From contig JASMHE010000013.1 in the NCBI GenBank assembly GCA_030750865.1, positions 62,001 to 126,000 of the forward strand: 64,000 nucleotides of DNA. The letters run 5' to 3'. This DNA is from Alphaproteobacteria bacterium. Lineage in GTDB: Bacteria; Pseudomonadota; Alphaproteobacteria; Micavibrionales; Micavibrionaceae. Positions 18,565 through 37,054 of the stretch are shown here, piece after piece; the first letter of the stretch is position 1, and every line of letters begins with the position of its first letter. Below the pieces are notes generated by a model. The model was given only the letters and a program-made list of their open reading frames with translations. It ran no database searches and had not been told where the DNA came from. A program made the position numbers and the translations under genes.

Positions 18565-21500
18565 ATGGCACGCTTTTTTATTGACCGTCCGGTTTTCGCA
18601 TGGGTTCTGGCCATCATCACGATGCTTGCCGGTGTGTTGGCCATCCGTTCCTTGCCTGTTGAACAATATCCGAAGGTTGCGCCGCCGACCGTGGCGATTA
18701 ATGCCAGCTATCCGGGGGCGTCTGCCGAAACGGTCGAGAATTCTGTTACACAGGTGATCGAACAGCGCCTTAGCGGGATTGATTTTTTACGCTATTTCTC
18801 TTCCAGCAGTGCTGATGGTTCCATGACGATTACGCTGACATTCGAGCCGGAAGCCGATCCCGACATTGCGCAGGTGCAAACACAGAACAAGGTGCAGGGT
18901 GCTGTGCCGCTCTTGCCGCAAGATGTGCAAGAGCAAGGTGTTATCGTTACGAAGTCGAACGATACATTTTTGCTGGTGGTGGGGCTTTACTCTGATGATG
19001 GCAAATTCACGCAAGGGGCGCTGAGTGATATTCTGGTATCCAGTTTCCGTGACCCGTTATCACGTGTAAACGGTGTCGGCAGTGTGCGCGTTTTCGGTGC
19101 ACAGAACGCAATGCGGATATGGCTCGATCCGGCCAAGCTTTACAGTTACAAGATGACCCCACTTGAGGTTGAAGCGGCCATTCAGACACAGAATACGGAT
19201 GTGTCGGCCGGACAGCTCGGCGGTATGCCTGCGGTGGAAGGCCAGCAGTTGAATGCGACGATCACGGCGCAATCCCGTTTGGAAACGGTCGAAGATTTCG
19301 AGCAGATTGTCCTGCGCGTGAATCCGGATGGATCACAGGTGCGTTTGATGGATGTGGCGCAGGTCGAGCTTGGCTCGGAATCCTATGACACGATTACCCG
19401 TTATAAACGCAAACCTGCGGCCGGTATTGCGATCAGTCTGGCCACGGGGGCCAATGCGCTGGAAACAGCGGATCTTGTGAAAGAACGTGTGAAAGAGCTT
19501 CAGCAATTCCTGCCCGAAGGCGTTGAAGTAATTTATCCATATGACACAACACCGTTTGTTAAGTTATCAATCGAATCCGTTGTACATACATTGATCGAAG
19601 CGGTTTTTCTGGTTTTCCTTGTTATGTTGCTGTTCTTGCAGAATTTTCGGGCAACGCTGATCCCGACCATTGCCGTGCCGGTGGTGTTGCTGGGGACGTT
19701 TGCCATTTTGGCGGCATTTGGTTTTTCCGTGAATACGCTGACGATGTTTGCGATGGTGCTGGCCATCGGTTTGCTGGTGGATGATGCGATTGTCGTGGTT
19801 GAAAACGTCGAACGGATCATGAGCGAAGAAGGTTTGTCCCCCAAAGAAGCAACGCGCAAATCAATGGACCAGATTACAGGGGCCTTGATCGGTATTGCGA
19901 CGGTGCTGTCCACAGTGTTTATTCCGATGGCGTTTTTCAGCGGATCGGCCGGGGCGATCTATCGCCAGTTCTCGATCACGATTGTCTCGGCGATGGTGTT
20001 GTCTGTTGCGGTGGCGCTTATTCTGTCGCCGTCACTCTGTGCGTCGATTCTGAAGCAGGACAAAGACGGTCACCGCAGAAAAGAAAAAGGATTTTTCGGG
20101 GCTTTTAACCGGTACTTCAACAAGGTGCGTGATGTATATCAACGCAGTACATCGTATATCGCGCGGCGCGTTGTGCGTTTCTTTGTCTTGTATCTGGTTC
20201 TGATCGGCGGGCTTGTTTACGGTTTTGCGAATATTCCGACGGCGTTCCTGCCGGACGAAGATCAGGGCTTTATGTTCATGATGGTTAATACACCGGCCGG
20301 ATCAACATCGGAACGGACATTGGAGTCGGTGAAAGATGTTGAAGATTATCTGCTGGAACAAGATACAGTTGAACACTTATTCACCGTGGTCGGGTTTAGT
20401 TTCGCCGGTTCGGCGCAGAATGCGGCCTTTGGTTTCGTGGGCTTGAAAGACTGGGAGGAACGCGAAGGCGACGATGAAAGTGTGTTTGCGATCTCCGGTC
20501 GCGCGATGGGAGCATTTTCGCAAATTAAAGATGCGATGGCATTTGCGTTTTTCCCGCCGCCTATTCGGGAATTGGGGAATGCGTCCGGTTTTGATTTTCA
20601 GCTCATTGACCGTGCCGGATTGGGGCATCAGGCCTTGATGAATGCACGGAACCAGCTTCTTGGTGCAGCGGCGCAGAATCCGATGCTGGTCGGCGTGCGC
20701 CCCAATGGTCTGGATGATGTGCCGCAATTCAAAATTGATATTGATAACCAAAAAGCCGCCGCGATGGGCGTGCCGCTGAATGACGTTAACCGGACCTTGC
20801 AGATTGCATGGGGGTCGAGTTACGTGAATGATTTCATTGATGATGGCCGGATCAAGAAAGTTTATATGCAGGGCGATGCGCCGTCCCGCATGATGCCCGA
20901 AGATGTGCATGATTGGTATGTGCGCAATAACGAAGGCGAAATGGTACCGTTTAACACATTTTCTGCGACGCGCTGGACATATGGATCACCGAAACTGGAG
21001 CGATTTAACGGTAGCTCTTCGGTGAATATTCAGGGCAGCCCTGCCGAAGGGATATCCACCGGTGTGGCAATGGACGAGATCGAGAAGATTGTAGAAACAT
21101 TGCCCGATGGCATTGGTCTGGAATGGTCCGGTATTTCGTACGAAGAACGTGCGGCGGGCTCACAGGCACCTGCGTTATATGCGCTGTCTGTGTTGATCGT
21201 GTTCTTGTGTCTGGCCGCATTATATGAAAGCTGGGCTGTGCCGCTGGCGGTGATGTTGGTCGTTCCGCTCGGCGTTCTGGGGTCTGTGATTGCCAGTAAC
21301 ATTTTCGGTGTGGCCAATGATGTGTACTTCCAGGTTGCGTTGCTGACGACGGTCGGACTGGCATCTAAAAATGCGATCCTGATTGTGGAATTTGCCAAAG
21401 AATTGAAAGAAGACGGGCATAGTTTGATGGAGGCTGTCGCCACGGCCGCCCGTCAACGTTTCCGTCCGATCCTGATGACATCAATGGCGTTTATGCTTGG

Positions 21501-21699
21501 TGTGACACCACTGGCTACGGCAAGCGGCGCGGGTGCTGCCAGCCAGAATGCGATTGGTATCGCCGTGATGGGCGGTATGATGGCGGCGACATTCCTTGCA
21601 ATTTTCTTTGTGCCGATGTTCTATGTGGCCGTTGAAAAGATTTTCCACAAAGAAGATGTTGACGCCAAGACAGCACACGAGGAAGGACAAGACAAATGA
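18565..21699 (+). CDS. RND multidrug efflux pump, HAE1/AcrB-like
   Basis: Inner-membrane proton/drug antiporter of 1044 residues, the usual AcrB size, expected to work as a trimer with 12 transmembrane helices per subunit. N-terminus [17 protein letters not shown] is typical. The proton-relay aspartates of helix 4 are at about D406-D407 ([12 protein letters not shown]), and the helix 10 lysine is in [17 protein letters not shown]. Two large periplasmic loops are present. It lies between the AcrA-like adaptor and the channel gene, whose ATG overlaps its stop by 4 bp. Likely controlled by the divergent TetR repressor. Confidence 0.96.
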
Positions 21700-23129
21700 G
21701 AAAAACAGTTTTGACAGTGATGGCTGTGTGCGGTGTGACGACGGCGCTGGGTGCGTGTACGATGGTGCCTGATTATTTGCGTCCGGGCTTTTCGGCGGCG
21801 GAGCAGTGGAATGATGTGCCGGGCTATGAAACGGCGCAAGGCGAACAGGCCGCGCAAAATCTGCACTGGCGGAATTTTTTCAAAGATCCGGCTTTGCGTC
21901 AGGTGATTGCCATTGCGCTGGAACATAATAAAGATTTACGGATGGCGGCGCTGAATATTGATGCGGCGCGCGCGCAATATCGTATTGAGCGCGCCGATAT
22001 TGTGCCGTCGGTTAATGCAAATGCCGATGCGACTTATCAGGAAAGCTCGGATGAGAGCAGTGTCACAGGGCGTAGCGAACGCACGGATTTGTATGATGCC
22101 AACCTCGGTATCAGTGCCTATGAACTGGATTTATTCGGGCGTGTCCGTAGTAAAAATCAGGCGGCGCTGAATGACTATCTGGCAACGGAATCTGCGCGTG
22201 ATGTCGTGCGTAACCGCTTGATTGCCGAAGTTGCGAATGCCTATTTGCGATTACTTGCCGACCAAAAACTTCTGGCGCTGACGGAAAAGACGCTCGCGGC
22301 ACAGGAAAATACATATGATCTGTTGTCGCGGACGCGTGATGAAGGTGTGGCAACGGAATCTGATGTTTCACGCGCGCAAACAGCCGTTGAAACCGCCCGT
22401 GTGAATTTGCATCAATATCGCCGTCTGGTTGAGCAAGACAAGAATGCGCTGACGCTTTTGATGGGCGTGCCGCATAGCGAAGGCATGATCCCTGTATCCG
22501 GATTGGAAAATATTGACGTTCCCGTTGCGCTTGATCCGGGATTGCCGTCCGATGTGTTGACTGCCCGCCCCGATATCCGGCAGGCCGAATATGAATTGTT
22601 GGCCCGTAATGCGGATATTGGCGCGGCCCGTGCGGCGTTCTTCCCGCAAATTTCACTGACCGGCACATATGGTTTTGCCAGTGACAGCCTGTCAGACCTT
22701 TTTACCAGTGGCGCGGCAGGGGCATGGCGTTTTGTACCGCAAGTTACGTTGCCTGTTTTTCAGGGCGGGCGGAACAAAGCCAATCTTGAACTGGCGGAAA
22801 TCAGAAAAGAAAGCGCGATTGTGAATTACGAAAAGGCCATTCAGACAGCCTTTCGCGAAGTGTCTGATGAACTGGCAGCACGTGCCACATTGACAGAACA
22901 GCTCGAGGCGCAGCGCCGTTTGGTTGCGGCATCAGAGCGCGTATATAATATGTCTGACGAGCGGTACAAAGCCGGTATCGATAGCTTCTTAAGTGTGCTG
23001 GACGCACAGCGCGAGCTTTATGTCGCGCAGCAAAATGAAATCCAGACAGAACGCCAGCGTTTGACAAATCTGGTCAATCTTTACAGAGTGCTGGGTGGCG
23101 GTTCGTTCGGTGAAGACGAAGTGCGTTAG
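21696..23129 (+). CDS. outer-membrane efflux channel, NodT/OprM family
   Basis: A 477-residue TolC-like trimeric channel subunit. The signal peptide ends in a lipobox (TALGAC), so the protein is probably an outer-membrane lipoprotein. Two OEP domains of long coiled helices follow (about 70-255 and 275-465), including [18 protein letters not shown]. It overlaps the pump gene by 4 bp (ATGA), completing an adaptor-pump-channel operon. It converges on a second TolC-family gene 27 bp away. Confidence 0.93.
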
Positions 23130-23156: not shown

Positions 23157-24458
23157 TTACAAATCTTTGAATATATCGGGGCGTAAAAGGCCGAGACTGT
23201 TGGCGAGTGCGAATTTGGCGACGACTTCGTCACGGCGGGCGCGGGCAAGGGCTGCTTTCGCGTCGATGACTTCTTGGTCAGCATCCAGTACATCCAGAAC
23301 GGTGCGCTGCCCTTCGCGGGCTTCGATTCGTACGCCTTCCAATGCGGCTTCGGTTGCTGTGATTTGTGCTTTGCGGCTTTCGATCTGTGCTTTTGCGGCC
23401 TGATAAGCGCGCCAGTGCTTTGTGACCGTGCGCTTGATCCGTTGCCGTGTTTCCTGAATTTCATAGTGTTGCCGTTTGGCCGACCGCCGTGCCTCACGAA
23501 GACGTGAACGGGCCGCGCCGCCTTCGTATAGTGTAATGGTCGCGCGCAGGCCGACCATTTCAGTCTGGCTTTCATCGACGATGCCGGGTTGCGGGTCATA
23601 TTGCTTGTTGTATGAGGCAAAGGCCGCCAGTTGTGGCAGTAATTCGCGGAATGTTGCATCTGCGCCGTGTTCGGCGGCGCGTTGTTCGAATTGTATGATC
23701 ATGAGTTCGGGGTTTTGCCGTTCGGCCAGCGTAATCATGTCGTTCATATCCGTTGGCAGTGCAATCCGGCTATGAGGGACCAACAAGACATCCGGTACGG
23801 CCATGCCTACAATATCTTCGAATGCGGCACAGCTCATGTCAAAATCGCCTTCGGCTTTGATCCGTTCGGCTTCGGCGCGGGCCAGTCTTGATCTGGCTTG
23901 CTGCACATCCGTTGTTGTAATGTCCCCGATGGCCATCCGTTCGCGCGCGGCATTCAGTTCTTGTGTCAAGATATCTTCGTTATGCAGGCGCAAATCCAGA
24001 ATTTTGCGATCGCGGAGTACATTCATATAGACAGTGACGGCCTCAAGAAAGATGTCTTGTTCGGCTTGTGACAGCACAGCTTCACCGGCCCGGATCAAAT
24101 CACGGGCGCGGGCTGTTTCGGCAAATGTCCGGCCGCCCCGCCAAATCGGTTGATCCAGACTGACGGTCATATCTTTGGTGGTGGCACCAGTACCGTTCCC
24201 GAAATTACTGCTTTCGATATCGGTCGCAAATAAACGTGCTTCACCGCTTACCGTCGGAAGCCATCCGGCGCGGGCCTGCGGATATAATTCCATTGTTTCA
24301 TGCAGTTCTTCGCGGGCGGCTTTCAAGGTCGGGTTATTGTCATGGACGTGTTGAAGGATATCCGGTAATCCCCAATAGCCGTCCTGATTTTGTGCCTGTG
24401 CCGCATGGTTTGTGGTGATGAAAAAAGTCAGGATGATAACCGAAATGAAATGGCGCAT
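23157..24458 (-). CDS. TolC-family outer-membrane channel, likely for type I secretion
   Basis: A 433-residue TolC-family protein with a cleavable signal peptide (cut near AAQA) and no lipobox, unlike the NodT-type channel it converges on. Two OEP repeats are visible (about 45-215 and 240-425), with helices rich in Ala, Glu and Arg, such as IKAEGDFDMSCAAFEDIVG. Its position beside the OmpR regulator and close to the ABC/HlyD genes suggests it is the outer-membrane component of that secretion system. This is inference from context; the protein could also serve a pump. Confidence 0.85.
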   Translation of the reverse strand: MRHFISVIILTFFITTNHAAQAQNQDGYWGLPDILQHVHDNNPTLKAAREELHETMELYPQARAGWLPTVSGEARLFATDIESSNFGNGTGATTKDMTVSLDQPIWRGGRTFAETARARDLIRAGEAVLSQAEQDIFLEAVTVYMNVLRDRKILDLRLHNEDILTQELNAARERMAIGDITTTDVQQARSRLARAEAERIKAEGDFDMSCAAFEDIVGMAVPDVLLVPHSRIALPTDMNDMITLAERQNPELMIIQFEQRAAEHGADATFRELLPQLAAFASYNKQYDPQPGIVDESQTEMVGLRATITLYEGGAARSRLREARRSAKRQHYEIQETRQRIKRTVTKHWRAYQAAKAQIESRKAQITATEAALEGVRIEAREGQRTVLDVLDADQEVIDAKAALARARRDEVVAKFALANSLGLLRPDIFKDL

Positions 24459-24576: not shown

Positions 24577-25299
24577 TTATGACGACTTGTCTTGATGGAA
24601 CATATAGCCGACACTGCGAATCGTTTTTATGATTTGCGGATTGGTTGCATTATCGCCCAGCTTCTTCCGCAGCCGTGCAATTTTGACATCAATGGCGCGT
24701 GGTGTTGGGGCATAGGATTTCTTGCGTAGTGCGTCGCAGAGTTCCTCCCGACTGAGCGGTTTGCCCGCATTCTGAATTAAGACATGCAGGAGTTCGAATT
24801 CCTTGACGGTTAAATTACCGACCTTGCCTGTGTCATCGATGATCTGGAATTGGTCGCAATCAACAGTCCAGTTCCCGCATTTTATATCGCGCCCGTTTTG
24901 CGTGGACGCCGGATCGATATTGCGCGTGCGTTGATATTCTTTGGCACGTCTGATGTTGGCCTTGATTTTGGCGAGTAAGACATCTACATCAACCGGTTTT
25001 GTCACATAATCGTCTGCGCCTGAGGCCAGCCCGTCCAACTTGTTATTTTTGGTATCATCACCGCTGACAATGATGACGGGCGCTTTTGTGTGAAAACGGA
25101 TGTCGTGGATGAATTCAAGCCCGCTGCCATCAGGCAGATGAATATCGAGCAGGATTAAGTCGATGGGGTGGCGTCTGACCACTTCCAGTGTGCGTTTGCC
25201 ATTTGTGCTTTCGATAACCAGAAAGTCTTCTCTTTCCAGACTCTTCTTCAGCATATGGCGTAAAAGTTTGTCGTCATCGACGAGTAAAATCGTATCCAT
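24577..25299 (-). CDS. OmpR-family response regulator
   Basis: A 240-residue transcription factor. Receiver domain at about residues 1-120 with the acidic pair DDD (8-10), phospho-acceptor D52 (LILLDIHLPDGSG) and conserved lysine in YVTKPV. Winged-helix DNA-binding domain at about 140-235 (LTVKEFELLHVLIQNAGKPLSREEL, RAIDVKIARLRKKLGD, IRSVGYMF). No kinase gene is directly adjacent. It diverges from the acidic secreted-protein gene, and phased repeats lie between them. It is the only protein of the 23-40 kb region with a recognisable DNA-binding output, so it is the natural end point of the phosphorelay encoded there. Confidence 0.93.
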   Translation of the reverse strand: MDTILLVDDDKLLRHMLKKSLEREDFLVIESTNGKRTLEVVRRHPIDLILLDIHLPDGSGLEFIHDIRFHTKAPVIIVSGDDTKNNKLDGLASGADDYVTKPVDVDVLLAKIKANIRRAKEYQRTRNIDPASTQNGRDIKCGNWTVDCDQFQIIDDTGKVGNLTVKEFELLHVLIQNAGKPLSREELCDALRKKSYAPTPRAIDVKIARLRKKLGDNATNPQIIKTIRSVGYMFHQDKSS

Positions 25300-25441: not shown

Positions 25442-27754
25442 ATGGCGAAATTCATGAAACAAGATGGTATGCAAACGCGTATCGAGACGAATCTCGATAT
25501 GTCCGATATGACGATTACGATACCGACAAGAAAGCTGGATGCCGATCAATATTCTGCGGATGATCTGGATGGTGTGACCGAAAGTTTATTCGGGTCGGGC
25601 AATATGGCGTATGCCAGTTTGCAGGCCTCACAGACAGATGCTTTATTGGCTGGCGGTGGTGGTGATTATCAGCAGGCAGACCTTGTGTTGAACGCTGATA
25701 AAGGTAACCAGATGAGCAGCAATACAGACCGTCCGTTGACGGAAAGCTATGTGACCGATACCGAAAGTCTGGGAACGGAAGGCAGTTTTGCCAATACGAC
25801 GGTCGGGTCGCTGGGGGCATCTACGTTATCGTCGGATGTCGGGGCGTTTTCACCGGATTCGAATTTGAGCATTCGCGGCGAAAATTTCTTTAAAGGCACG
25901 GCAACAACATCACAAGCGGGGCGCAGCGGTGGTCAACATGATTCCGGTGATGCGGTTAGTGTCGATAATTCGACGCAAAGCGATACAACGCAAAATATTA
26001 CCAATACAACGATCGATAATTCGGTGCATCTGGGTGATGACATCACGGAAATTATCGAAGGCGACATTGTTGAAGAGGTCGTAAACACGATTACCAACGA
26101 AATTCACGACGTGACTGAAACGATCAGCACGACGGTGAATAATGTTACGGAAATTATCAATGATATTTTGCTGGATACAGGTATTACGACGATTGTGAAT
26201 AATGTCACAGAGGTCGTCAATCATGTGACCGACAGCGTAACAAATATTGTCGATCATTTGATTGACGGTACGTTATCACTTGATCTGGATGCCGATATCT
26301 TGGAAACGCTTACCGGTGATGTCGGCATTGTTATCGAGGATAGCGTTGCCGGCAATATTGATATTGGTGCAACGACAGAAAATCTTTCCTCGATTGTGAA
26401 TGATCTGACAGGGCTGAGTATTTCGTCATTGTCGATATTGGATTCCAATATCGGGTTTGATTTGCTGAGCGGTGAAAATATTGATGACGGCAATGATATA
26501 TCGATTGCCGGACTTGCAACGCCGGATATTGATCTGGACATTATCGAGGATATCGTTGGCGATATTGATATATCGCTGGATTTACCAACAGAATTACTGG
26601 ATGGCGAGATATTGGTCGATACGGTGCAGGAGACGGTCGGTAGCCTGAGCGACCTCGATATTCCCGATGTGGACGATGTGATTGAAACATTAGGTGATGA
26701 AGGCGTTGACGGCGCAGTTGAGGCTGTGATCGGCGATACTGTTCTGGGGGATGATTTTGATATTGATGTTGATGACATTCTCGGCGGTCTTGGACTTGGC
26801 GATGGCGGTGATGACCCGGATGCAGGCGCAGAGCCTGTCAGTGATATCGCTGATCCGTTGACCGAAGGGACAGGCGATGTTGTTGACGGCTTAACGGGCG
26901 GCGCAACTGACGAGATTACCGATACGGTGACGGATATTGTCGATGACATATCGGATGTGGGCGATCATATCGTGGATGGCCTCGTCGGCGATGTGTTCGG
27001 ACAGGACAATGATGAGGGTACGGATAGTGATCTGGTTGCCGGTCTGGATACCGATATTGTGGACACAGATATTATTGATGGTGCCGTGGATGTGATCCTT
27101 GATCCGGTCGAAGATTTGATCGGTGATGTCGATCTTGAAGCGGTCGGCGGTCTTGATTTATTTGGCGACAATGAAACAGACAACAATGACGGTGATACAG
27201 ATATCACGGTCAATGCAGATGCTGACCTTGTCGATGGGGATATTGCAGAGGCGCTGTCGGATATCCCGCTGGACCCTGTCGAAGAGATTGTCGGTGATGT
27301 TGATATTGATGCGGGGGCCGCTGCCGATTTATTGGATGACGTTGCCGATTCCGTTGTGAATGACGGTGAAGGCGGCACGGGCGAAGAGACAATTTTATCT
27401 GAAACCGGTGATGCGCTTGGTGATTTGGTGGAAGACCTTCTCGACGTTGACGACGACGGCGCGCTGAATGATGTGCTTGGTTTGTTGGGTGATACGGACG
27501 AAACGGCAACACAGAGTGACGGCACGGACACGCCGTCGGCAGGAATAGATGCAGATGACGATATCGGCAGCTGGACGGAAACAACGGTTGGTGATGGCGG
27601 GTTGTTCGATGATGTCGTCGATGGCATTGGCGGTGGTGACAGTGATGCATTGCCCGATCCGCTGGGAACGGTCGGTGAAGGACTTGGAATCCTCGATACG
27701 GATTCGAATGCCGGTAGTGACGGCGGTCTGTTTGGGGGAGGGCTATTCGGATAA
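25442..27754 (+). CDS. large Asp/Gly/Val/Ile-rich repetitive protein, probable type I secretion substrate
   Basis: About 770 residues, extremely acidic, without cysteine and nearly free of aromatic and basic residues after the first 120. No signal peptide and no classical GGxGxDxUx RTX repeats. Residues about 195-285 repeat a VNNVTEI / NxVT pattern. The rest is built of short units such as DIIEDIVGDIDI, DPVEDLIGDVDLEA and DPVEEIVGDVDIDA (the last two 57 residues apart). The C-terminus has GSWTETTVGDGGLFDDVV and ends GGLFGGGLFG, a plausible uncleaved secretion signal. Start at 25442 is set by TAGGGAG 9 bases upstream. The ABC gene follows after one base. Acidic side chains suggest calcium binding outside the cell. 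No family recognised; role as adhesin or matrix protein is inference. Confidence 0.8.
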   Translation: MAKFMKQDGMQTRIETNLDMSDMTITIPTRKLDADQYSADDLDGVTESLFGSGNMAYASLQASQTDALLAGGGGDYQQADLVLNADKGNQMSSNTDRPLTESYVTDTESLGTEGSFANTTVGSLGASTLSSDVGAFSPDSNLSIRGENFFKGTATTSQAGRSGGQHDSGDAVSVDNSTQSDTTQNITNTTIDNSVHLGDDITEIIEGDIVEEVVNTITNEIHDVTETISTTVNNVTEIINDILLDTGITTIVNNVTEVVNHVTDSVTNIVDHLIDGTLSLDLDADILETLTGDVGIVIEDSVAGNIDIGATTENLSSIVNDLTGLSISSLSILDSNIGFDLLSGENIDDGNDISIAGLATPDIDLDIIEDIVGDIDISLDLPTELLDGEILVDTVQETVGSLSDLDIPDVDDVIETLGDEGVDGAVEAVIGDTVLGDDFDIDVDDILGGLGLGDGGDDPDAGAEPVSDIADPLTEGTGDVVDGLTGGATDEITDTVTDIVDDISDVGDHIVDGLVGDVFGQDNDEGTDSDLVAGLDTDIVDTDIIDGAVDVILDPVEDLIGDVDLEAVGGLDLFGDNETDNNDGDTDITVNADADLVDGDIAEALSDIPLDPVEEIVGDVDIDAGAAADLLDDVADSVVNDGEGGTGEETILSETGDALGDLVEDLLDVDDDGALNDVLGLLGDTDETATQSDGTDTPSAGIDADDDIGSWTETTVGDGGLFDDVVDGIGGGDSDALPDPLGTVGEGLGILDTDSNAGSDGGLFGGGLFG

Positions 27755-27755
27755 G

Positions 27756-29477
27756 ATGTTTTCAACGGGGGTGGAGCACAAATGTCGGGATGATATCCTG
27801 AAGCCGGATGGCTATCGGCAAAGCGTATATGCGCTATTACTGTGTACGCTGGCGATTAATCTCTTATCACTTGCCTTGCCGGTGATGACGTTACAGGTTT
27901 ATGACCGTATTTTGCCAAATCCGGGCACGGGCACGTTGCCTGTTCTGGTCACTGGTGTGTGTGTTGCAATCTTTCTTGAAGTGTTGTTGCGGCTTTCCCG
28001 TTCCTATGTGATCGGTCGCGCCGGCGCCGCTTATGAACATCGCATGGCGTGCCGTGCGATGGAAAAGATACTGGGTGCAGACCTTACGAAAATGGGATCA
28101 TACGGTATCGGCGGTCATTTGCACCGGATGAGCGCGGTCGGAAAATTGCGTGATTTTTACAACGGGTATGCGTTGGTGGTGCTGGCCGAACTTGCGTTCG
28201 TGCCGTTATTTTTCGCTCTGATTATTTATATCGGACGATGGTTGGCGGTGGTGCCGGCGGCAATTCTTTGTTTGTTTATTCTGGTATCATTATGGAAGGG
28301 ATATCGCATACGGTGCGCGTTAAAAGATAGGGAAGACGCGGATGACAAGCGGTTCGATTTCCTGATTGAATCATTGGAAGGCGTGCATACGATCAAGGCG
28401 TTTGCGCTAGAGAAATTCTTTGAACGGCGGTATGAAGCGCTGGAAGAACAGTCGACGGCTGAAAATTATACGGTGACACAAGAAACGGCGGGGACATTCA
28501 ATATTGGTGCAATTTTCTCGCATATCATGGTGGCCGCTGTCATCAGCGCGGGGGCTTGGTTTGTATTGGCGCATATGTTGACGACAGGGGAGCTGATTGC
28601 CGTGCTGTTACTATCGGGGCGTATGATGCAGCCGATCCAGAAGGCGCTTGTTCTCTGGGCGCGTTATCAGGATTATGCCTTAGCCAGAAAAAACGCCGAA
28701 GAGCTTTTTACAACACCACAACAGATTGTTAAAGCGCGGAACACAGATGGTGTCCCGATGCCCGACGGGCGGTTGCGGATGGAGAATGTATCGTTCCGGT
28801 ATCAGGATGATGATACGCCGATTTTAAGACAGGTTGATCTGGACATCAAACGCGGTGACACGGTGCTTGTCTCCGGTGAACATGGTGCAGGAAAAACAAC
28901 ATTGTTGAATGTGATTGCCGGGATTTATCCGGTTGAGCAGGGGGATATGCGTGTTGACGGGCAACATGTCGGGAGTTACATGCCCGAAGCGCTTGTTTAC
29001 CATGTCGGTTATATTCGCAGTTTACCGCTGATTTTTCGCGGGACAATCCGCGATAATATTACATGTTTCGGGCAAACGAACGAACGGCAAGCACGGGAAG
29101 TTGCTGCGCTCTTGGATGTTGACCGTGATGTGGCAAAACTGCCGGGCGGGTTTGATACATTCCTGAGCGGGAATAACACGGATTCTATTCCGCCGGGATT
29201 AAAACAGCGTATCGCAATTGTGCGTGTTCTGGCGACAAAACCACGCCTGATCCTGTTTGATAATGCGGATCGCTCTCTGGATAAAGATGGCTATGCCATG
29301 ATCTATAGCTTGCTGGCACGCCTGAAAGGTAAGGCCAGCCTGATCCTGATTTCCGATGACAAAAATATTTGCGGTTTGGCGGATTGGCATTATGTGCTGG
29401 AAAATGGCGCGCTTGTGAAGGCCGAGCATGCTGTTAGTCGCGGTAATGTGCGTCCATACAGGGAGTTACGGTTATGA
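27756..29477 (+). CDS. type I secretion ABC protein with degenerate ATPase (first half)
   Basis: A 573-residue inner-membrane ABC half-transporter of the PrtD/HasD type: N-terminal transmembrane domain (about 25-310) with LPVMTLQVYDRILPN, then a nucleotide-binding domain. Walker A is normal (GEHGAGKTT from G374). The Q-loop glutamine is replaced (GYIRSLPLIF), the signature is IPPGL (478-482) instead of LSGGQ, the catalytic Walker B Glu is N503 (LILFDNAD), and the H-loop His is an Asp near 534. Hydrolysis by this domain is doubtful. Start: ATG at 27756, 1 bp after the substrate gene stop. It overlaps the next ABC gene by 4 bp, so the two products probably form a heterodimer. Confidence 0.9.
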   Translation: MFSTGVEHKCRDDILKPDGYRQSVYALLLCTLAINLLSLALPVMTLQVYDRILPNPGTGTLPVLVTGVCVAIFLEVLLRLSRSYVIGRAGAAYEHRMACRAMEKILGADLTKMGSYGIGGHLHRMSAVGKLRDFYNGYALVVLAELAFVPLFFALIIYIGRWLAVVPAAILCLFILVSLWKGYRIRCALKDREDADDKRFDFLIESLEGVHTIKAFALEKFFERRYEALEEQSTAENYTVTQETAGTFNIGAIFSHIMVAAVISAGAWFVLAHMLTTGELIAVLLLSGRMMQPIQKALVLWARYQDYALARKNAEELFTTPQQIVKARNTDGVPMPDGRLRMENVSFRYQDDDTPILRQVDLDIKRGDTVLVSGEHGAGKTTLLNVIAGIYPVEQGDMRVDGQHVGSYMPEALVYHVGYIRSLPLIFRGTIRDNITCFGQTNERQAREVAALLDVDRDVAKLPGGFDTFLSGNNTDSIPPGLKQRIAIVRVLATKPRLILFDNADRSLDKDGYAMIYSLLARLKGKASLILISDDKNICGLADWHYVLENGALVKAEHAVSRGNVRPYRELRL

Positions 29478-31714
29478 GTGCGGATGCGGGGGTAAATAAT
29501 ATGAAAGCAATGCAAATCGAAAGCGGTGTCTTTGAACGGTTTGTCGATAGTCAGCCGATTTTGAACATGCTTGATTTGCTGGTGCGCACCGGACGGGATC
29601 ATTTCCGCGAGGACGGCGTGTGGGAAGTCTGTTTATGTGCGTTGGTTCTCGGGATTGAACCGCATTGTAAGGTGCAACGTATTCTGGAGGCTTTGCCGTA
29701 CCACCACAATGAAATGGACGATGTGGATGTCCTGAATACGATGGCGCATCTGGGATATCATTGTCGCAAAGCCAGTGCAGGGCTTGATGATGTTGATGAA
29801 CGGTTGTTGCCGGGTTTGTTTGTGCCTGCCGAGGGTGAACCATGCATTATTTTGGGGCGTGATTCACGCGGCCATCTGCAATTTTATGATCCTTTGTCAA
29901 AATTGGTCAGCAATGTGCCGCCGTCTTTTGATCAGGACGGACAGGTCTGGTTCTTCCAAAAATATGACGAGAATCGTCAGGTGACATCAAAATTCATGCG
30001 CAATGGAAGCGGCGTAAGCTGGTTCCGTGCATTGATGGGGCGTTTTAAAGGTACGTTCGCGCAAATCCTGACGGCCGGATTTATATTGAATATGATTGCG
30101 CTCGCAACGCCGCTTTTCATTATGTTGGTGTATGACCGCGTGATTGCGGCCGGGTCGATTGAAACTCTGCCGATGTTGGCGTGTGGCGCGTTGATTGCGA
30201 TCGGGTTTGAATGGAAGTTGCGGCATATTCGTTCGGCCGGATTATCGTGGCTTGCGGGGCGTATGGATAATATTGTCGGGAACAAGATTTTTGCCCATCT
30301 GGTTGGATTGTCTCCCGACTTGATTGAGCACGCATCTGTTGCGGCGCAAATTGCGCGGATCAAAACATTCGAATCTGTGCGGGACTTTTTCAGCGGATCG
30401 GTCTTTCTGTCCGTTCTGGAAGCACCGTTTGTGTTCTTGTCTGTGCTGGCGGTTGCGTTTATCGCGGGCAGTCTTGTCTTTGTGCCTTTATTTATGGTGT
30501 TGGGCTACATTGCGCTGTTTGTTTTTATTCGTCACAAGGTTAAAACAGCGATCCGTTTGGCCGCTAAAGCCAGTTCGGCGCGCCAGCAATTCACGATTGA
30601 GACCTTTGAGAAACTCGAAGGGATTCGCGGTCACGGTCTTGGCAAAAAATGGCAGGAAAAATTCCGCCATCTGTCAGGCCGGGAAATGATGACGCATTTT
30701 GATCTTGGCTGGCTAGGTATGGTGGCCGAGACTTGCGCGCATGCTTTGACGGTCATTGCGGCGGTTGCCACAGTCGGGTTCGGTACACATTTGATTTGGG
30801 CCGGAACGATGAGTACGGGCGCATTGGTCGCCACAATGATTTTGGTCTGGCGGATTCTGACGCCGTTTTATTCGCTCTGTACGATGATCCCGCGTCTGGA
30901 ACAGCTGCGTAATTCGATTGTGCAGGTGAATGATTTGATGGAAATTGACACTGAAGCCGAGGAAGCCAAAAGCTTTTCACGCTTACCGACCCTAAAAGGA
31001 GCCGTATCGTTTCATAATGTCTCGTTCCGGTATGATGAAGATGCCGATAATGTCTTTCATGATTTATCGTTTGATGCGCAGGCCGGGGATATTGTCGCCC
31101 TGACCGGCAGTAACGGCACAGGTAAAGCGACGATTTTGAAATTGGTGAAATCTTTGCACCGCGCGACAAACGGAATGGTGCGTATTGACGGGTTTGATGT
31201 ACGGCAACTTGATGCGCCTTATTTGCGGCGGCAAATTGCATATGTCCCAAAGCATCCGCATTTCTTTCGTGGCAGCGTGATTGAGAATGTGCGTATGTCC
31301 AACCCGCTGGCCAGTGCAGATGATGTCGAAAAAGCATTATTGCTTGCCGATGCATGGGACGATGTTCACAAGATGCAGGCCGGACTTGATACGGTGATTG
31401 GCTCGCACGGTGCAGTCAAACTTACATCGAGTCTGGCAACCCGCCTGTCATTGGCGCGGGCTTATTTGCATCCGGCTTCTATTCTCTTGATCGATGAATT
31501 GCCCAACACATTATTGTCCGATACGGCAGGACAGAATCTGAAAGATTATTTGGTGCGGGTCAAAGGCAAACGGACGGTTTTGCTGTGTACATACCGGCAG
31601 GATTTTATGGCGTTGGCCGATACAATTGTATGGCTGCGCGGTCTGTCATCGCCGGAAACCGGACCACGGGATACCATGTTAAAAACCATTCAGGCAGGAG
31701 GTCTTGCAGCATGA
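29474..31714 (+). CDS. type I secretion ABC protein with C39-like domain and degenerate ATPase (second half)
   Basis: A 746-residue LapB/HlyB-type half-transporter. Residues about 20-165 resemble a C39-like domain without the catalytic D-C-G motif, so it should bind the substrate and not cut it. The transmembrane domain spans about 195-480. The nucleotide-binding domain has a Walker A of GSNGTGKA (Ala at 552 in place of Thr/Ser), a Q-loop with Lys (YVPKHPHFF), signature LTSSL (650-654), an intact Walker B with Glu675 (LLIDELP), and Tyr707 at the H-loop His. The gene overlaps its neighbours by 4 bp on both sides (ATGA), so translation is coupled. Which site, if any, hydrolyses ATP is unclear. 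Confidence 0.9.
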   Translation: MSADAGVNNMKAMQIESGVFERFVDSQPILNMLDLLVRTGRDHFREDGVWEVCLCALVLGIEPHCKVQRILEALPYHHNEMDDVDVLNTMAHLGYHCRKASAGLDDVDERLLPGLFVPAEGEPCIILGRDSRGHLQFYDPLSKLVSNVPPSFDQDGQVWFFQKYDENRQVTSKFMRNGSGVSWFRALMGRFKGTFAQILTAGFILNMIALATPLFIMLVYDRVIAAGSIETLPMLACGALIAIGFEWKLRHIRSAGLSWLAGRMDNIVGNKIFAHLVGLSPDLIEHASVAAQIARIKTFESVRDFFSGSVFLSVLEAPFVFLSVLAVAFIAGSLVFVPLFMVLGYIALFVFIRHKVKTAIRLAAKASSARQQFTIETFEKLEGIRGHGLGKKWQEKFRHLSGREMMTHFDLGWLGMVAETCAHALTVIAAVATVGFGTHLIWAGTMSTGALVATMILVWRILTPFYSLCTMIPRLEQLRNSIVQVNDLMEIDTEAEEAKSFSRLPTLKGAVSFHNVSFRYDEDADNVFHDLSFDAQAGDIVALTGSNGTGKATILKLVKSLHRATNGMVRIDGFDVRQLDAPYLRRQIAYVPKHPHFFRGSVIENVRMSNPLASADDVEKALLLADAWDDVHKMQAGLDTVIGSHGAVKLTSSLATRLSLARAYLHPASILLIDELPNTLLSDTAGQNLKDYLVRVKGKRTVLLCTYRQDFMALADTIVWLRGLSSPETGPRDTMLKTIQAGGLAA

Positions 31715-33051
31715 TACAGGAGACCGGAAAATCAAACAGCAGACGGCGCGAAAAACAAACGCGTTATTTGTCACAGGCGATCCAGTTAGAAGAAGCTGTG
31801 AACCCGCATATTATTCGCGCAACCATGACAATGGTATCGCTGGCGATTTTTGTCTTTCTTGTCTGGGCCGGATTCACAAATATCAACGAAGTGGCGCGCA
31901 CATCGGGCGAGGTTGTGCCGCAAGGCTATCAACAAACGGTACAACATCTGGAAGGCGGTATGGTGAAACAAATCCATGTGCAGGAAGGTGAGGTTGTAGA
32001 GCATGGGCAGGTGCTGATCTCGATGAATGAGGTCGGCATCAAGGAAGATATGGAGCGCGCCCGTAGCAGGCAATTGTCACTGGCAATGCAGGCCGAACGA
32101 CTGCGCGCCTTTGTCGAGGAACGGGAGCCCGATTTCACTGTGTTTACACAGGCCGATCCGGCCATGATTGCCGACCAGAAATCATTTTTCACCGGTATGC
32201 AAGCTGCACGGGCCAAAGAAAAACGCATCATACAGGACCAGATATCGCAGAAAACACAGATGCTGTCATCATTGCGTAGCGATTTGAGCACAGCCCGCAA
32301 AAATCTCGGCATTGTGCAAGATATGCATGAGCGGCGCAGTTTGCTGAATGAAAAGGGTTATGTGTCCGATATGCGAATTCTGGAAGAAGAAAGACGTTTG
32401 AATGAAATTCGCGGGAATATCAATAATCTCAATAATCAGATCCTGATTGCTAAAGGCGAGATCAAAGAGTTCAGAGGCCGTCTTGATTCACTGACGGCAA
32501 CGCACAGGGATGATGCGAATGAGCGGCTCGATCAGGTGTTGGCCGAAAAGGCGCAAAACACAGAAGTGATCGACAAGCTTGAAGAGCGCATCGGGCGCTT
32601 GCAAATCCGCGCGCCATCGCACGGTTTTGTGAAAGGGGTAGCGGTCAATACGGTCGGTGCTGTTGTGCAGCCGGGCCAGACGTTGATGGAGATTGTGCCG
32701 CTGGACAAAGATCTGGAGGTGCAGGTGAAAATATCGCCGAAAGATATCGGGCATTTACGGATCGGGCAGCCCGTACAGGTCAAATTCAGTACATTCGATT
32801 TCTCGCGGTATGGTTCGGTGCAAGGACGGCTTGCGCAGATATCGGCGACCACGTTCGCGGATGATAAAGGCGGGCGTTATTATCAGGGGCGTATTTTACT
32901 GGATCAAAATCATGTCGGGAGCAATCCGGATAATCGTGTGATGCCGGGCATGACGGTTATGGCCGATGTGATTACGGGAAAAAAGACAATCTTACAATAT
33001 TTGCTGAAGCCTATTCACACATCAATCAGAACGGCATTTTCGGAAAGGTAG
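31711..33051 (+). CDS. HlyD-family type I secretion adaptor
   Basis: Membrane fusion protein of about 446 residues with a short cytoplasmic N-terminus, one transmembrane helix (MVSLAIFVFLVWAGF), a lipoyl domain around HLEGGMVKQIHVQEGEVVEHG, a long coiled coil (about 100-290), and a C-terminal barrel (IRAPSHGFVKGVAVNTVG, VMPGMTVMADVITGKKTI). The last residues have the typical LLKPI...ER ending of type I secretion adaptors. Start ATG at 31711 has AGGAGGT eight bases upstream and overlaps the ABC gene stop. It should link the two ABC proteins to the TolC-type channel. Confidence 0.94.
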   Translation: MIQETGKSNSRRREKQTRYLSQAIQLEEAVNPHIIRATMTMVSLAIFVFLVWAGFTNINEVARTSGEVVPQGYQQTVQHLEGGMVKQIHVQEGEVVEHGQVLISMNEVGIKEDMERARSRQLSLAMQAERLRAFVEEREPDFTVFTQADPAMIADQKSFFTGMQAARAKEKRIIQDQISQKTQMLSSLRSDLSTARKNLGIVQDMHERRSLLNEKGYVSDMRILEEERRLNEIRGNINNLNNQILIAKGEIKEFRGRLDSLTATHRDDANERLDQVLAEKAQNTEVIDKLEERIGRLQIRAPSHGFVKGVAVNTVGAVVQPGQTLMEIVPLDKDLEVQVKISPKDIGHLRIGQPVQVKFSTFDFSRYGSVQGRLAQISATTFADDKGGRYYQGRILLDQNHVGSNPDNRVMPGMTVMADVITGKKTILQYLLKPIHTSIRTAFSER

Positions 33052-33057
33052 GGGGTC

Positions 33058-34038
33058 ATGATGACGGGGTATAATACAGGGTATAATACAGGGCATAAAC
33101 ATAAAATTGATTATTCGTTGCTGGATAAAGATGATCCTGTGCGCGTGCTGGCGGTGGAAGATGATGCGCTGGCAATGAAGTTTCTGGAAAAACAGATCGC
33201 GTTTTTGGGGCATGAAATACTCAAGGCAGAAAACGGGCGGGCTTCGCTTGCGGTGCTGGAGGATAATGCGGACGGCATTGATGTGGTGTTGATGGATCGG
33301 GAAATGCCGGTTATGGACGGGCTGGAAGCCGTGCGGCGGATCAAGGACAATCCGCGGTTGCGCAATATTCCGGTCATTATGGTGACGTGTGCGGATTCGG
33401 CGCAAGAAATGCAGGAAGGGCTGGATGCCGGTGTTTTTTATTATCTGACCAAACCCGTCAAAGCCGATATGTTGCGGTCTGTTCTGGCTGCGGCTGTGCG
33501 AGAGGCACGGCAGTCCCGCATATTGGCCGAAGAACTGGGCAAGCACCGCACCAGTTTTAATTTGATTGAAACCTGCAAATTCAATTTCCGGACATTGGCC
33601 GAAGCGGAAAGCCTTGCCGCATTTATGGCGAATTGCTTTCCCGATCCGGCGCGCGTTGTGTCCGGTCTGGGCGAGTTACTGATTAATGCGGTCGAGCACG
33701 GCAATCTGGGGATCGGATATGAGAAGAAAACCGCCTTGATTGATGCGGGTACATGGCGCGCGGAAATTGAGCGCATGCAGAATTTGCCCAAATATGCCGC
33801 GACCTATGCCGTGGCGACAATCGCACACAGAAAAGACGGTGTGTATGTGGTGATTGAAGATCAGGGTGACGGGTTTGCGTGGCGTAATTTTATGACGATT
33901 GATCCGGCGCGTGCCGGTGATAATCACGGGCGCGGCATTGCACAGGCGAATGCCACCAGTTTCGACAAGTTAACCTATAACGATATCGGCAATCAGGCAG
34001 TGGCCTGCGTCGGGTATAACAAACAGCTGGAGTGGTGA
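33058..34038 (+). CDS. receiver domain fused to RsbW-like ATPase domain
   Basis: A 326-residue signalling protein. The N-terminal receiver (about 20-150) has phospho-acceptor D80 ([13 protein letters not shown]) and KPVK. The C-terminal part (about 170-326) has GHKL/anti-sigma serine kinase features: [17 protein letters not shown] (N box), [11 protein letters not shown] (G1 box) and GRGIAQANA. It has no DNA-binding domain. It may act as a switchable protein kinase or partner-binding module in the phosphorelay. The first residues encode a tandem GYNT repeat. Starts 6 bp after the HlyD gene with AGGGGGT upstream, so it is part of the secretion operon. Confidence 0.82.
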
Positions 34039-34042
34039 AATC

Positions 34043-37000
34043 GTGTGTATGAAAACGAAATTCGGTGAGATTGTAAAGGAGTGGCCCGCCCACGTCCTGA
34101 TCCTTTTTATCGGTATCTCGTTGTCGTTTGGTGTCGCGTGGATGGTGCATTTGTCACAGACAGAACGCACGCACGAAAATTTTGAACATCTGGCCAGCAA
34201 AGATATGGCGCTGGTGAATAACCAGATTCGGGCGCATGAAGGCATGCTTTATAATCTGGGCAGTTTTTATTTGTCATCACAGAAAGTAACGCGGAATGAG
34301 TTCGCAAACTTTACAGAGAACGCGCTGGACACACATAAAAGTATCGATGCCATTGGCTGGATCGGGTTTGATCCGCAGGAAAAGCAATATAGATTTTCAC
34401 ATATTCAGCCGGATGATAACCGGCAACTCGAAGATCAGATCGTGCCGGTCAACGGGGTATTTTACAATATGATCGGAGATACGCTTGCCAGTGGTGAAAT
34501 AACACATTTTCTGCGCACCTTGCAGGATGTCAGCTTCCACGATATTCATCCGGCAAGTGCGCATGATGCGGGTTATCACTTGATTATTCTTCATCCTGTG
34601 TATGAACAGGAGGGCGGGCTGGATCGTGTTTTGAAAGGTGTCGCCTATAGTATCCTGGATTACGATGTGCTGGTGCAGGAAACCTTTGACGGTCAGCGAT
34701 CGCGTGGGTTTTTGAATTACGCAATCGAATATCGCAGTAGTACGACGGCAGACCACGCATCGGATGCCGGCGGTTTTCTGGTTTATGGCAACATCGATGA
34801 TATCAAGAATGCGCCGTACCTGTATGCGCAGATCAAAGAGCTAAGCCGTTTGAAACTGGTATGGTATTTTGCGCCGACGCAAAAATTCGTGACGCAATAT
34901 GACACCAACAATAATACGATCATCATTTTCGCTGTTTTATGTGCTTTAACAATGGCGATGCTTTTTCTGCGGCAGATGGCTGTGAATGTTGATGCGTTAA
35001 AAACGGCGCGGGAACAGGCCGAGGAAGCCAATCGTCTGAAATCAGAGTTTTTGGCCACGATGAGTCATGAAATCCGCACGCCGATGAACGGGATTCAAGG
35101 GATGGCGGAACTTATTCTCAGTTCGAAATCATGGGAGCAAGCCGAAGAACATGCGCGCACGGTTCTGCATTCCAGTGAAATGTTATTGCGGATCATTGAT
35201 GATATCTTAGACTTCTCGAAAATAGAGGCCGGTCGTCTGGAGCTTGAGCCAATGGCGATTGACATGCTGGAAATTGCCGATGAAATCGCAGAGCTTTATG
35301 CCGTGAAGGCCCGTGAGAAAGCGATCGAACTGGTGGTGCGTTATGTGCCCGGCAGTGAACAGTTTGTGTTTGCCGATCCGGTGCGCGTGCGCCAGATCCT
35401 GAGTAATCTGGTGGATAATGCGATCAAATTCACCGAAAGCGGTCATGTTGCATTGACGATCACGGAAGATAAAGAGGCAAATCTGGATAACGACCATGTC
35501 GCGTTGCAATTTTGCGTGATTGATACGGGAATCGGTTTATCGCAAAAAGCGCAGGCGCGTATCTTTGATAAATTCTCGCAGGCCGATGGATCGACCACGC
35601 GCAAATATGGCGGAACGGGTCTGGGGTTGTCAATTTGTAAAAGTCTGATTGATATGATGGGCGGTGATATCAGTGTGCAGAGCAAGGAAGGGAAGGGCAC
35701 AACATTCTGTTTTACGGTGCCGTTCAAACGCAATACCGAACAGGTTTATGAATTGCCGCGGCCACCTGTTTTGGAAGATTTACGTCTTTTGATTGTCGAT
35801 GATTTGCCGATCATACGGCAGATTGTATCCGAACAGTTGAATATGGCAGGCATGCGGTGTGATGTGGCCGGAAATGTGCGCGCGGCGCTGGAAATGATGC
35901 GCGATGCCAATATGAAAAACGATCCCTATAAAATGGTGATCATCGATTATTTAATGCCGGATATGAATGGCGAAATGCTGGCGCTGGCCATCAAAGATTA
36001 TGACGATTTTCAGAACACATGTCTTGTGATGTTGACCGCAGCCGGTAATCCGATCAGTGATGAGTCGTTTTCTGCGAAGGGATTTTCCGCTTATATCGCC
36101 AAGCCTGTACGCAGTAAGGCGTTGGTGGAAACGCTGGCGATTGTTTGGGGAGAATATGAGGCGGGCAATCGTGACAGTCTTATTCGTGTCGATACGCGTA
36201 GTCTTGGCGGGGATGCCGACGGAGAACGGGACTTTATGTTGCCGGATGCCCGTATCCTGATTGCCGAAGATAATCTGGTCAATCAGACATTTATTCGCAA
36301 AACACTTGAAGAAATGGATGCAAAATCAACGATTGCATCGAACGGACAGGAAGCGTTGGATGCTGTACGCAAAGAACGCTTTGATTTGATTCTCATGGAT
36401 TGCCTGATGCCGGTGATGGATGGATTCGAAGCAACGCGCAAGATTTGTGACATGAAAGAAAAAGGCGATGTCAGAGAAAACTTGCCGATCGTTGCGCTGA
36501 CGGCAAATGCCATGAAAGGGGACCGTGAGCGTTGCCTGGACGCCGGCATGGATTTGTATTTGACAAAACCGGTGCGCAAAAAAGCATTAAAAGATGTTGT
36601 GTTTCGTCTGATCCGCGGCGATGCGCCTGGTGATGCCGAGAGTAAGGTTGTTCATTTACAGCAGGACGAGAGAAATACGGTCACACCGCTACATGATATT
36701 CTGGACGAAGATGCGGTGAAAGAGGCGCATGATACATTACAGGACGAATATGACGAGATGCTGGATATTTATATAAGCAGTAGCAAAGAGCATATCGAGA
36801 ATATCGGGCGGGCGCTGGAGGAAAAGGATATCGAGGCGGCCATTCGTCCGGCCCATACGCTCAAATCGGCCAGTCGCCAGATGGGGGCAAGTGCGTTGTC
36901 CGTCGTGGCACAGGATATCGAATATACGGCCAAAGCCATTCAAAACGGTGACACGGCCAAAGACGAAGGCATTCAGGATCTTTTACAATTTATCGAAAAA

Positions 37001-37054
37001 GCAGAGCAGCTCTATGCGCAAACATGTGATGCCTTAGAGCGTTTGGCGGCGTAG
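34043..37054 (+). CDS. hybrid histidine kinase: CHASE-HisKA-HATPase-REC-REC-Hpt
   Basis: Membrane sensor kinase of 1003 residues. A first transmembrane helix (about 14-33) and a second (about 290-312) enclose a periplasmic CHASE domain ([30 protein letters not shown]). Then come HisKA with phospho-histidine H342 ([11 protein letters not shown]), HATPase ([29 protein letters not shown]), two receivers with aspartates at about D635 and D786, and an Hpt domain with H938 ([14 protein letters not shown]). All phosphorelay steps are thus in one protein. The start is GTG at 34043 (GGAG nearby) or ATG at 34049. It probably senses a small extracellular ligand for the secretion locus. Confidence 0.92.

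Follow-up and report, generated by a model that had tools for sequence, protein, structure and literature searches.

A type I secretion ABC exporter pair kept intact with both ATP sites degraded, which may hydrolyze little or no ATP of its own

Exporters of the HlyB and LssB/LapB kinds (TIGR01846 and TIGR03375) join a transmembrane domain (TMD) to a nucleotide-binding domain (NBD) and are among the described systems closest to the ATP-binding cassette (ABC) gene pair reported here. The pair lies in a 64,000-nucleotide stretch from an alphaproteobacterium of the family Micavibrionaceae (assembly GCA_030750865.1, contig JASMHE010000013.1, positions 62,001 to 126,000; this whole stretch is called the window below). 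ABC1 (27756-29477, + strand, 573 amino acids) consists of a TMD and an NBD without an extra N-terminal domain, and ABC2 (29474-31714, + strand, 746 amino acids) has an LssB-type cytosolic N-terminal domain ahead of its TMD and NBD. The pair shares with the HlyB and LssB/LapB exporters the TMD and NBD, an operon with an HlyD gene, a TolC gene, and an acidic neighbor, and the N-terminal domain of ABC2 is covered by the LssB model. It differs from them in having two different halves, only one of which carries an N-terminal domain, in lacking LSGGQ, and in scoring well below the family cut-offs. PF00664 and PF00005 are above cut-off in both proteins, as in inner-membrane ABC exporters generally. 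The best NCBIfam model of each is TIGR03375, at 339.7 bits for ABC1 and 430.3 bits for ABC2 (over model positions 3-694) against a cut-off of 693.1; TIGR03375, TIGR01842, and TIGR01846 all stay below cut-off for the pair, which places it outside the LssB, PrtD, and HlyB subfamilies.

Heterodimeric exporters of the TM287/288, TmrAB, TAP, and CFTR type offer a second comparison through their asymmetric NBD pairs. The wider family of the window pair is like them in that one site mostly keeps its catalytic residues and the other mostly does not. It departs from them through the degeneracy of both sites in the window's own subclade, its place in a tripartite type I secretion system (T1SS), and the absence of LSGGQ from either side. 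The two NHLP bacteriocin export ABC proteins (TIGR03796/TIGR03797) are neighbors too, one of them with an extra N-terminal domain, but this assignment was rejected, the window proteins scoring 171-206 bits against cut-offs of 853 and 709. A PCAT/C39 peptidase exporter was likewise rejected: ABC2 residues 1-181 match nothing in Pfam at E values up to 0.5. The fused ABC protein of Azospirillum (e.g., WP_244442643.1) belongs to the same family and carries ABC1 and ABC2 in one chain beside HlyD and a giant Ig-like protein; unlike the window protein, it has an ABC2 half that retains Walker A together with Gln, Glu, the D-loop Asp, and His. None of the Pfam or NCBIfam models reached by the window's proteins is specific to a paired or fused exporter family lacking LSGGQ. 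A literature search, with most subscription journals outside its scope and hence weak as evidence of novelty, showed, among the entries listed, no description of a paired, fused, or doubly degenerate T1SS ABC exporter, and the accessible part of the M. aeruginosavorus genome paper places a T1SS cluster at GMV0107-0111 and describes no such pair there.

Motifs were placed with a HMMER alignment of ABC2 to HlyB, with alignments of both halves to 13 ordinary T1SS ABC paralogues of related genomes, and with orthologue alignments; all coordinates that follow are on the + strand. We call the ABC1 Walker A/B plus ABC2 signature site A and the ABC2 Walker A/B plus ABC1 signature site B. ABC1 has an intact Walker A (GEHGAGKTT, 28875-28901), IPPGL in place of LSGGQ with Gly481 kept (29187-29201), and Asn503 in place of the catalytic Glu (29262-29264), so that Asp502-Asn503 stands for Asp-Glu; Ser occupies the Q-loop Gln position and Asp the H-loop. 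ABC2 has Ala552 in Walker A (GSNGTGKAT, 31127-31129), Lys593 at the Q-loop Gln position (31250-31252), LTSSL at the signature position (residues 650-654, 31421-31435), and Tyr707 at the H-loop His position (31592-31594); it keeps the catalytic Glu as Glu675 (31496-31498), which matches the Walker B Glu of HlyB in the alignment that also confirms LTSSL and Tyr707. The initial annotation had named these substitutions in two intact frames overlapping by 4 bp, and every one of them is present. The D-loop Asp, which it had passed over, is lost in ABC2 and kept in ABC1 (Asp509). The two sites are still unequal: site B retains Lys551, Asp674, and Glu675, and ABC1 supplies it in trans with its signature Gly481 and D-loop Asp509. 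At neither window site do LSGGQ, GK[ST], the Walker B Glu, Gln, and His come together, and the earlier proposal of a heterodimer with two noncanonical composite sites holds as far as the sequence goes. The 13 paralogues carry the full consensus at the same positions (13/13), including LSGGQ (13/13), which marks the substitutions as going beyond chance. They are those of 23 lower-scoring matches that were assigned a locus, and their frames were chosen by the presence of SGGQ, so the comparison is not blind; frame lengths equal those of the matched frames, and all 13 loci are represented.

Sequence comparison places the window pair in a wide family whose members, paired or fused, lack LSGGQ wherever it could be read. 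The genome search that the initial annotation had proposed returned ABC1 orthologues of at least 34% identity in 17 of 58 genomes, the window's own included, and ABC2 directly follows ABC1 in all 18 orthologous stretches fetched (L036 repeats L032). An order-wide search gave 32 ABC2 matches above 590 bits in 31 of 142 genomes, the next match scoring 464 bits, and a class-wide ABC1 profile scored at least 489 bits at 41 places, spread over 40 of 385 genomes, with the next place at 405 bits and a continuum below 400. Both halves are adjacent or fused in 68 of the 73 loci read; the other five have a single half, at contig ends (L104, L168, L171, and L175, all near contig ends, lack ABC1). In what follows, the Micavibrionales set comprises the loci of the same-order searches plus L031 and L032, and L123, L124, and L127, which branch among Micavibrionales in the tree, are counted with the other alphaproteobacteria. 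The phylum sample comprises 20 loci chosen from a phylum-wide search, partly for long frames, and three of its 19 pairs are in the same class. The counts leave out L036, which shares a contig with L032, the split ABC1 of L149, and the partial ABC2 of L129 and L031; in L151, ABC2 breaks off at the signature, and nothing past that point can be read. Rows are not all independent since L104 and L172 come from one genome (G481).

Within this family LSGGQ was found in none of 70 ABC1 and none of 72 readable ABC2, nor in any of the 20 ABC1 and 19 ABC2 of the phylum sample. Orthologues with canonical motifs, named in the initial annotation as the sign of purely local decay, are thus missing among those read. 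Its description of both sites as noncanonical stands, with the refinement that loss of the signature is a property of the family rather than of this locus.

Several observations bear on how the two proteins work together. A 155-row tree, made by a quick method from an alignment that retained the motif columns, puts ABC1, ABC2, and the paralogues each on one side of a branch (Shimodaira-Hasegawa-like approximate likelihood ratio test, SH-aLRT, 100, 99, and 100), and the branching orders of ABC1 and ABC2 are broadly similar. The two halves are fused in a single frame of 1317 amino acids in L155, and the plasmids of Azospirillum lipoferum 4B and A. ramasamyi encode fused ABC1-ABC2 proteins of 1378 and 1375 amino acids beside the giant Ig-like protein and HlyD. 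Fused halves also occur in 11 of the 20 phylum-sample loci, all 11 outside the class, in a sample picked partly for long frames. Because the halves form separate clades and are adjacent or fused in 68 of 73 loci, ABC1 and ABC2 very probably form a heterodimer, and a single ABC1-ABC2 unit would be the simplest reading. Among loci of the phylum outside the class, fused proteins of ∼1300-1390 amino acids are seen in L190, L195-L198, L200-L202, and L204-L206, with LSGGQ absent from both halves.

The other catalytic residues are lost unevenly across relatives. The site B set of Lys, Ser/Thr, Glu, and His is kept in 19/19 pairs of the phylum sample, 32/39 other alphaproteobacterial pairs, 5/28 Micavibrionales pairs, and 0/6 pairs of the window's subclade; the corresponding site A counts are 2/19, 15/39, 0/28, and 0/6. 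Neither half has Lys, Ser/Thr, and Glu together in 6 of 28 Micavibrionales pairs, which are all six complete subclade pairs, versus 0 of 39 others. One consensus site, as in exporters with a single degenerate site, is accordingly absent from the window and from all six complete subclade pairs, while outside Micavibrionales 32 of 39 pairs keep the site B set, signature aside. The initial annotation's claim that both sites are degenerate is correct for the window and does not extend to most relatives outside Micavibrionales; since these keep the ABC2-side catalytic residues, the loss of the second site looks derived. L123, L124, and L127 are exceptions, with the full set at neither site.

Within Micavibrionales, ABC2 has lost the D-loop Asp in 32 of 32 proteins, the H-loop His in 26 (Tyr in 22, His in 6), the Q-loop Gln in 8, and the Walker A Ser/Thr in 7, each of the last having Ala; the catalytic Glu is kept in 31. 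Asn replaces the catalytic Glu in 19 of 29 ABC1. The combination of Walker A Ala and H-loop Tyr recurs in six other ABC2 loci, where Lys, Arg, or Ala occupies the Q-loop position. These seven Walker A-Ala rows form one clade (SH-aLRT 100), the window's subclade, and their ABC1 partners also form one (SH-aLRT 99), which includes L031, whose ABC2 is cut off. The distribution of residues suggests an order in which altered signatures arose family-wide, loss of the ABC2 D-loop Asp and mostly of His followed, and loss of Ser/Thr and Gln came last. Elsewhere, L042, L165, and L166 have a destroyed ABC1 Walker A and L123 an altered one, with sequences such as ADHSASKGA and AADDVALAV among these four loci; their ABC2 Walker A is intact, and their ABC1 proteins may thus bind no ATP. 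Damage to the ABC1 Walker A is seen only where that of ABC2 is intact, and vice versa, and because the overlap expected by chance is less than one pair (hand estimate), we make no claim that the two losses exclude each other. In L038 (5259-7640, - strand), ABC2 has a Gly/Ser-rich insertion of ∼20 residues directly before the P-loop that resembles P-loop repeats.

Selection on the pair was assessed from substitution ratios and from domain conservation. Nonsynonymous to synonymous rate ratios (dN/dS) of both halves are 0.016-0.018 for L046/L164, 0.035-0.040 for L040/L163, and 0.135-0.143 for L047/L170, consistent with purifying selection in these congeneric relatives. For the window ABC1 against L031, L032, and L035, synonymous sites are saturated; for the window ABC2 against L032 and L035, dN/dS is 0.067-0.075, resting on a dS above 2.5. 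Which domain is under the tighter constraint differs between groups. The NBD surpasses the TMD in conservation in 70 of 78 comparisons among canonical paralogues and in 694 of 780 among the ABC2 of other alphaproteobacteria, but in 124 of 496 among Micavibrionales ABC2 (183 with other domain limits) and in 0 of 15 among subclade ABC2 (TMD 0.81, NBD 0.68). For ABC1 the counts are 158/741 in other alphaproteobacteria, 125/406 in Micavibrionales (163 with other limits), and 1/15 in the subclade; since the NBD is seldom better conserved in other alphaproteobacteria either, the ABC1 pattern is old. These comparisons share branches, and the counts are descriptive, with no significance test attached.

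Taken together, these findings describe a pump that evolution has kept intact although both of its ATP sites are degraded, and which may carry out little or no ATP hydrolysis of its own. On balance we favor, by a modest degree of confidence, one heterodimeric T1SS exporter that lost catalytic residues stepwise, in which hydrolysis would be very slow or absent and export mainly driven by ATP binding. The ABC1-ABC2 heterodimer would act with HlyD and TolC to move the acidic protein encoded upstream to the cell surface. Its ancestor would have had a degenerate site A and a working site B with an altered signature. In Micavibrionales, site A would then have lost its remaining catalytic residues; at site B most members would have lost the H-loop His, and the window's subclade subsequently the Mg2+-binding Ser/Thr and the Q-loop Gln. 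ATP would very probably still be bound and would still close the dimer, hydrolysis would be expected to be very slow or absent, and transport would be driven mainly by ATP binding, with proton motive force or substrate folding outside the cell as a possible additional drive.

A slow or hydrolysis-free cycle driven by binding is favored because, by the standard of published mutants, site A should be dead and site B strongly impaired: one source gives an ATPase activity below 0.1% for HlyB H662A, in which the H-loop His is changed to Ala, and below 2% for HisP H211Y (PMC6222333). ATP binding alone may be able to switch TM287/288, according to PMC8277102, and degenerate sites of known exporters are described as keeping ATP bound like a hinge, with the work done at the other site (PMC7756269). 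An essential role of proton motive force early in HlyA secretion is reported in PMC5018854. A stronger version, in which a Micavibrio-like lineage runs a pseudo-ATPase T1SS that arose stepwise from an asymmetric heterodimer, with neither of its own sites hydrolyzing ATP and with nucleotide binding, proton motive force, or a partner as the drive, is one that we put forward tentatively and hold to be rather less probable.

Several points weigh against the binding-driven exporter. The same paper, PMC5018854, reports that HlyB H662A, which is hydrolysis-dead, binds ATP and yet HlyA secretion stops, so that a hydrolysis-free T1SS would contradict the one tested precedent found; it also reports no effect of external Ca2+ on the rate of HlyA secretion, which speaks against a folding ratchet there. 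Our literature search found no biochemistry on any family member. The complete Micavibrionales pairs keep, at site B, Lys in 28/28, the Walker B Asp in 28/28, and Glu in 27/28, and on the ABC1 side the signature Gly and D-loop Asp that serve site B in 28/28 each, a hint that some chemistry may remain. His is missing at both sites outside this lineage too, in the fused L155, and in L145-L147 site B lacks His and the site A set is kept. The three low-dS Micavibrionales pairs used for dN/dS all lie outside the window's subclade, where synonymous sites are saturated or nearly so, and the ABC1 NBDs are less conserved than the TMDs in the wider family too. AlphaFold models built from 3 and 2 rows are unusable as evidence on the geometry (mean pLDDT, the predicted local distance difference test score, 36.6 and 35.4).

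The residues that persist at site B and in ABC1 are also what recommends the first alternative, that site B hydrolyzes ATP usefully by an unusual chemistry, for example with Glu675 as the base, while Tyr707 and one other residue stand in for His, Ser/Thr, and Gln. In LptB, two changes that are each lethal alone give back function together (PMC6703430), so motif counting can mislead. We nonetheless regard this chemistry as unlikely: three further site B residues are lost in the subclade, all 15 subclade comparisons show the TMD of ABC2 to be better conserved than its NBD, and the His to Tyr change in HisP costs more than 98% of the ATPase activity (PMC6222333).

In the second alternative the pair is a pseudo-exporter with a structural or regulatory role. 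It would either team up with a canonical T1SS ABC dimer of the same cell, for instance as part of a mixed hexamer, or act as a sensor for the two-component proteins encoded next to it. A possible partner exists since the window's genome (2.19 Mb in 14 contigs; relatives at 71-72% identity are named Micavibrio sp.) contains two SGGQ-bearing T1SS-type ABC genes besides ABC1 and ABC2, and kinase and receiver genes do lie downstream of the pair. Nothing links either canonical gene to the pair, however, and we found no sign of mixing with a canonical ABC protein; each canonical gene has its own HlyD and a large acidic RTX-type neighbor, one of them a TolC-like gene as well, and HlyD, TolC, and substrate-like genes also accompany the pair itself. 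Outside Micavibrionales, moreover, giant acidic proteins adjoin the pair in many of the listed alphaproteobacterial loci, an arrangement expected of exporters, and we consider this role improbable. The neighboring phosphorelay genes, once annotated, yield no energy source.

Local decay or sequencing error is very unlikely and was rejected: motif residues do vary between genera, with the ABC1 Walker A damage described above, and HlyD is in two frames in L043, but Ala and Tyr stand at the same positions in seven ABC2 loci of one well-supported clade, the window frames are open with their 4-bp overlaps kept, dN/dS is low in the three congeneric pairs outside the subclade, and the operon, the frames, and the transmembrane parts stay conserved. 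The initial annotation had argued against simple decay from the open frames and overlaps, and the conservation of the pair, its fusion in some relatives, and the recurrence of the substitutions in one clade strengthen that argument. It has long been debated whether ABC export is driven by ATP hydrolysis or by binding alone. In this exporter, evolution seems to have produced the counterpart of a T1SS hydrolysis mutant, of the kind that in HlyB stops export (PMC5018854), with living relatives that provide a series from one good site to none.

The operon runs on the + strand in the order acidic protein, ABC1, ABC2, HlyD, receiver/HATPase-like protein, and hybrid histidine kinase. One base separates the acidic gene from ABC1, and ATGA overlaps of 4 bp join ABC1 to ABC2 and ABC2 to HlyD. 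The HlyD-type periplasmic adaptor (31711-33051, + strand, 446 amino acids) matches TIGR01843 at 395.7 bits (cut-off 208.65), and the TolC-type outer-membrane channel (23157-24458, - strand, 433 amino acids) matches TIGR01844 at 274.3 bits (cut-off 225.15), so that both T1SS partners are encoded with the pair. HlyD follows the pair in 16 of the 18 orthologous stretches, including L043, where it is split; the other two, L031 and L047, stop before its position. The TolC-type gene, with a relative in 8 of the 18 stretches, lies upstream and divergent from the operon together with an OmpR-type response regulator gene (24577-25299, - strand, 240 amino acids; Response_reg and Trans_reg_C), a relative of which adjoins the ABC pair in 11 of 18.

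The acidic protein (25442-27754, + strand, 770 amino acids, no Pfam family above cut-off) is the putative exported substrate. It has 10 Lys and Arg residues against 185 Asp and Glu, no Cys, the N-terminal motif KLDADQYSADDLDGVTESLFGSGN, and the C-terminal GGLFG. In 15 of 18 orthologous stretches, a relative occupies the corresponding position ahead of the pair. Across the 19 relatives compared, the termini are the parts most clearly shared; an N-terminal motif of the type KLDADQYxAEDLDGVTESxFGSGN and the C-terminal GGLFG recur in most, with L131 as the clearest exception. T1SS substrates are exported in one step with an uncleaved C-terminal signal; the candidate here is an acidic neighbor with a conserved C-terminus, and it would fit a surface protein or adhesin.

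Downstream of HlyD, a receiver domain is fused to a HATPase_c_2-like domain (33058-34038, + strand, 326 amino acids; HATPase_c_2 at 21.4 bits, below the cut-off of 27.4), with relatives in the same place in 14 of 18 related stretches. Its HATPase part is RsbW-like by a weak match and may act as a switch of the anti-sigma type. The hybrid histidine kinase that follows (34043-37054, + strand) carries receiver and Hpt domains. At 18565-23129, beside the TolC gene of the secretion locus, lies an efflux pump gene of the resistance-nodulation-division type (RND, AcrB-type), with an outer-membrane efflux gene after it.

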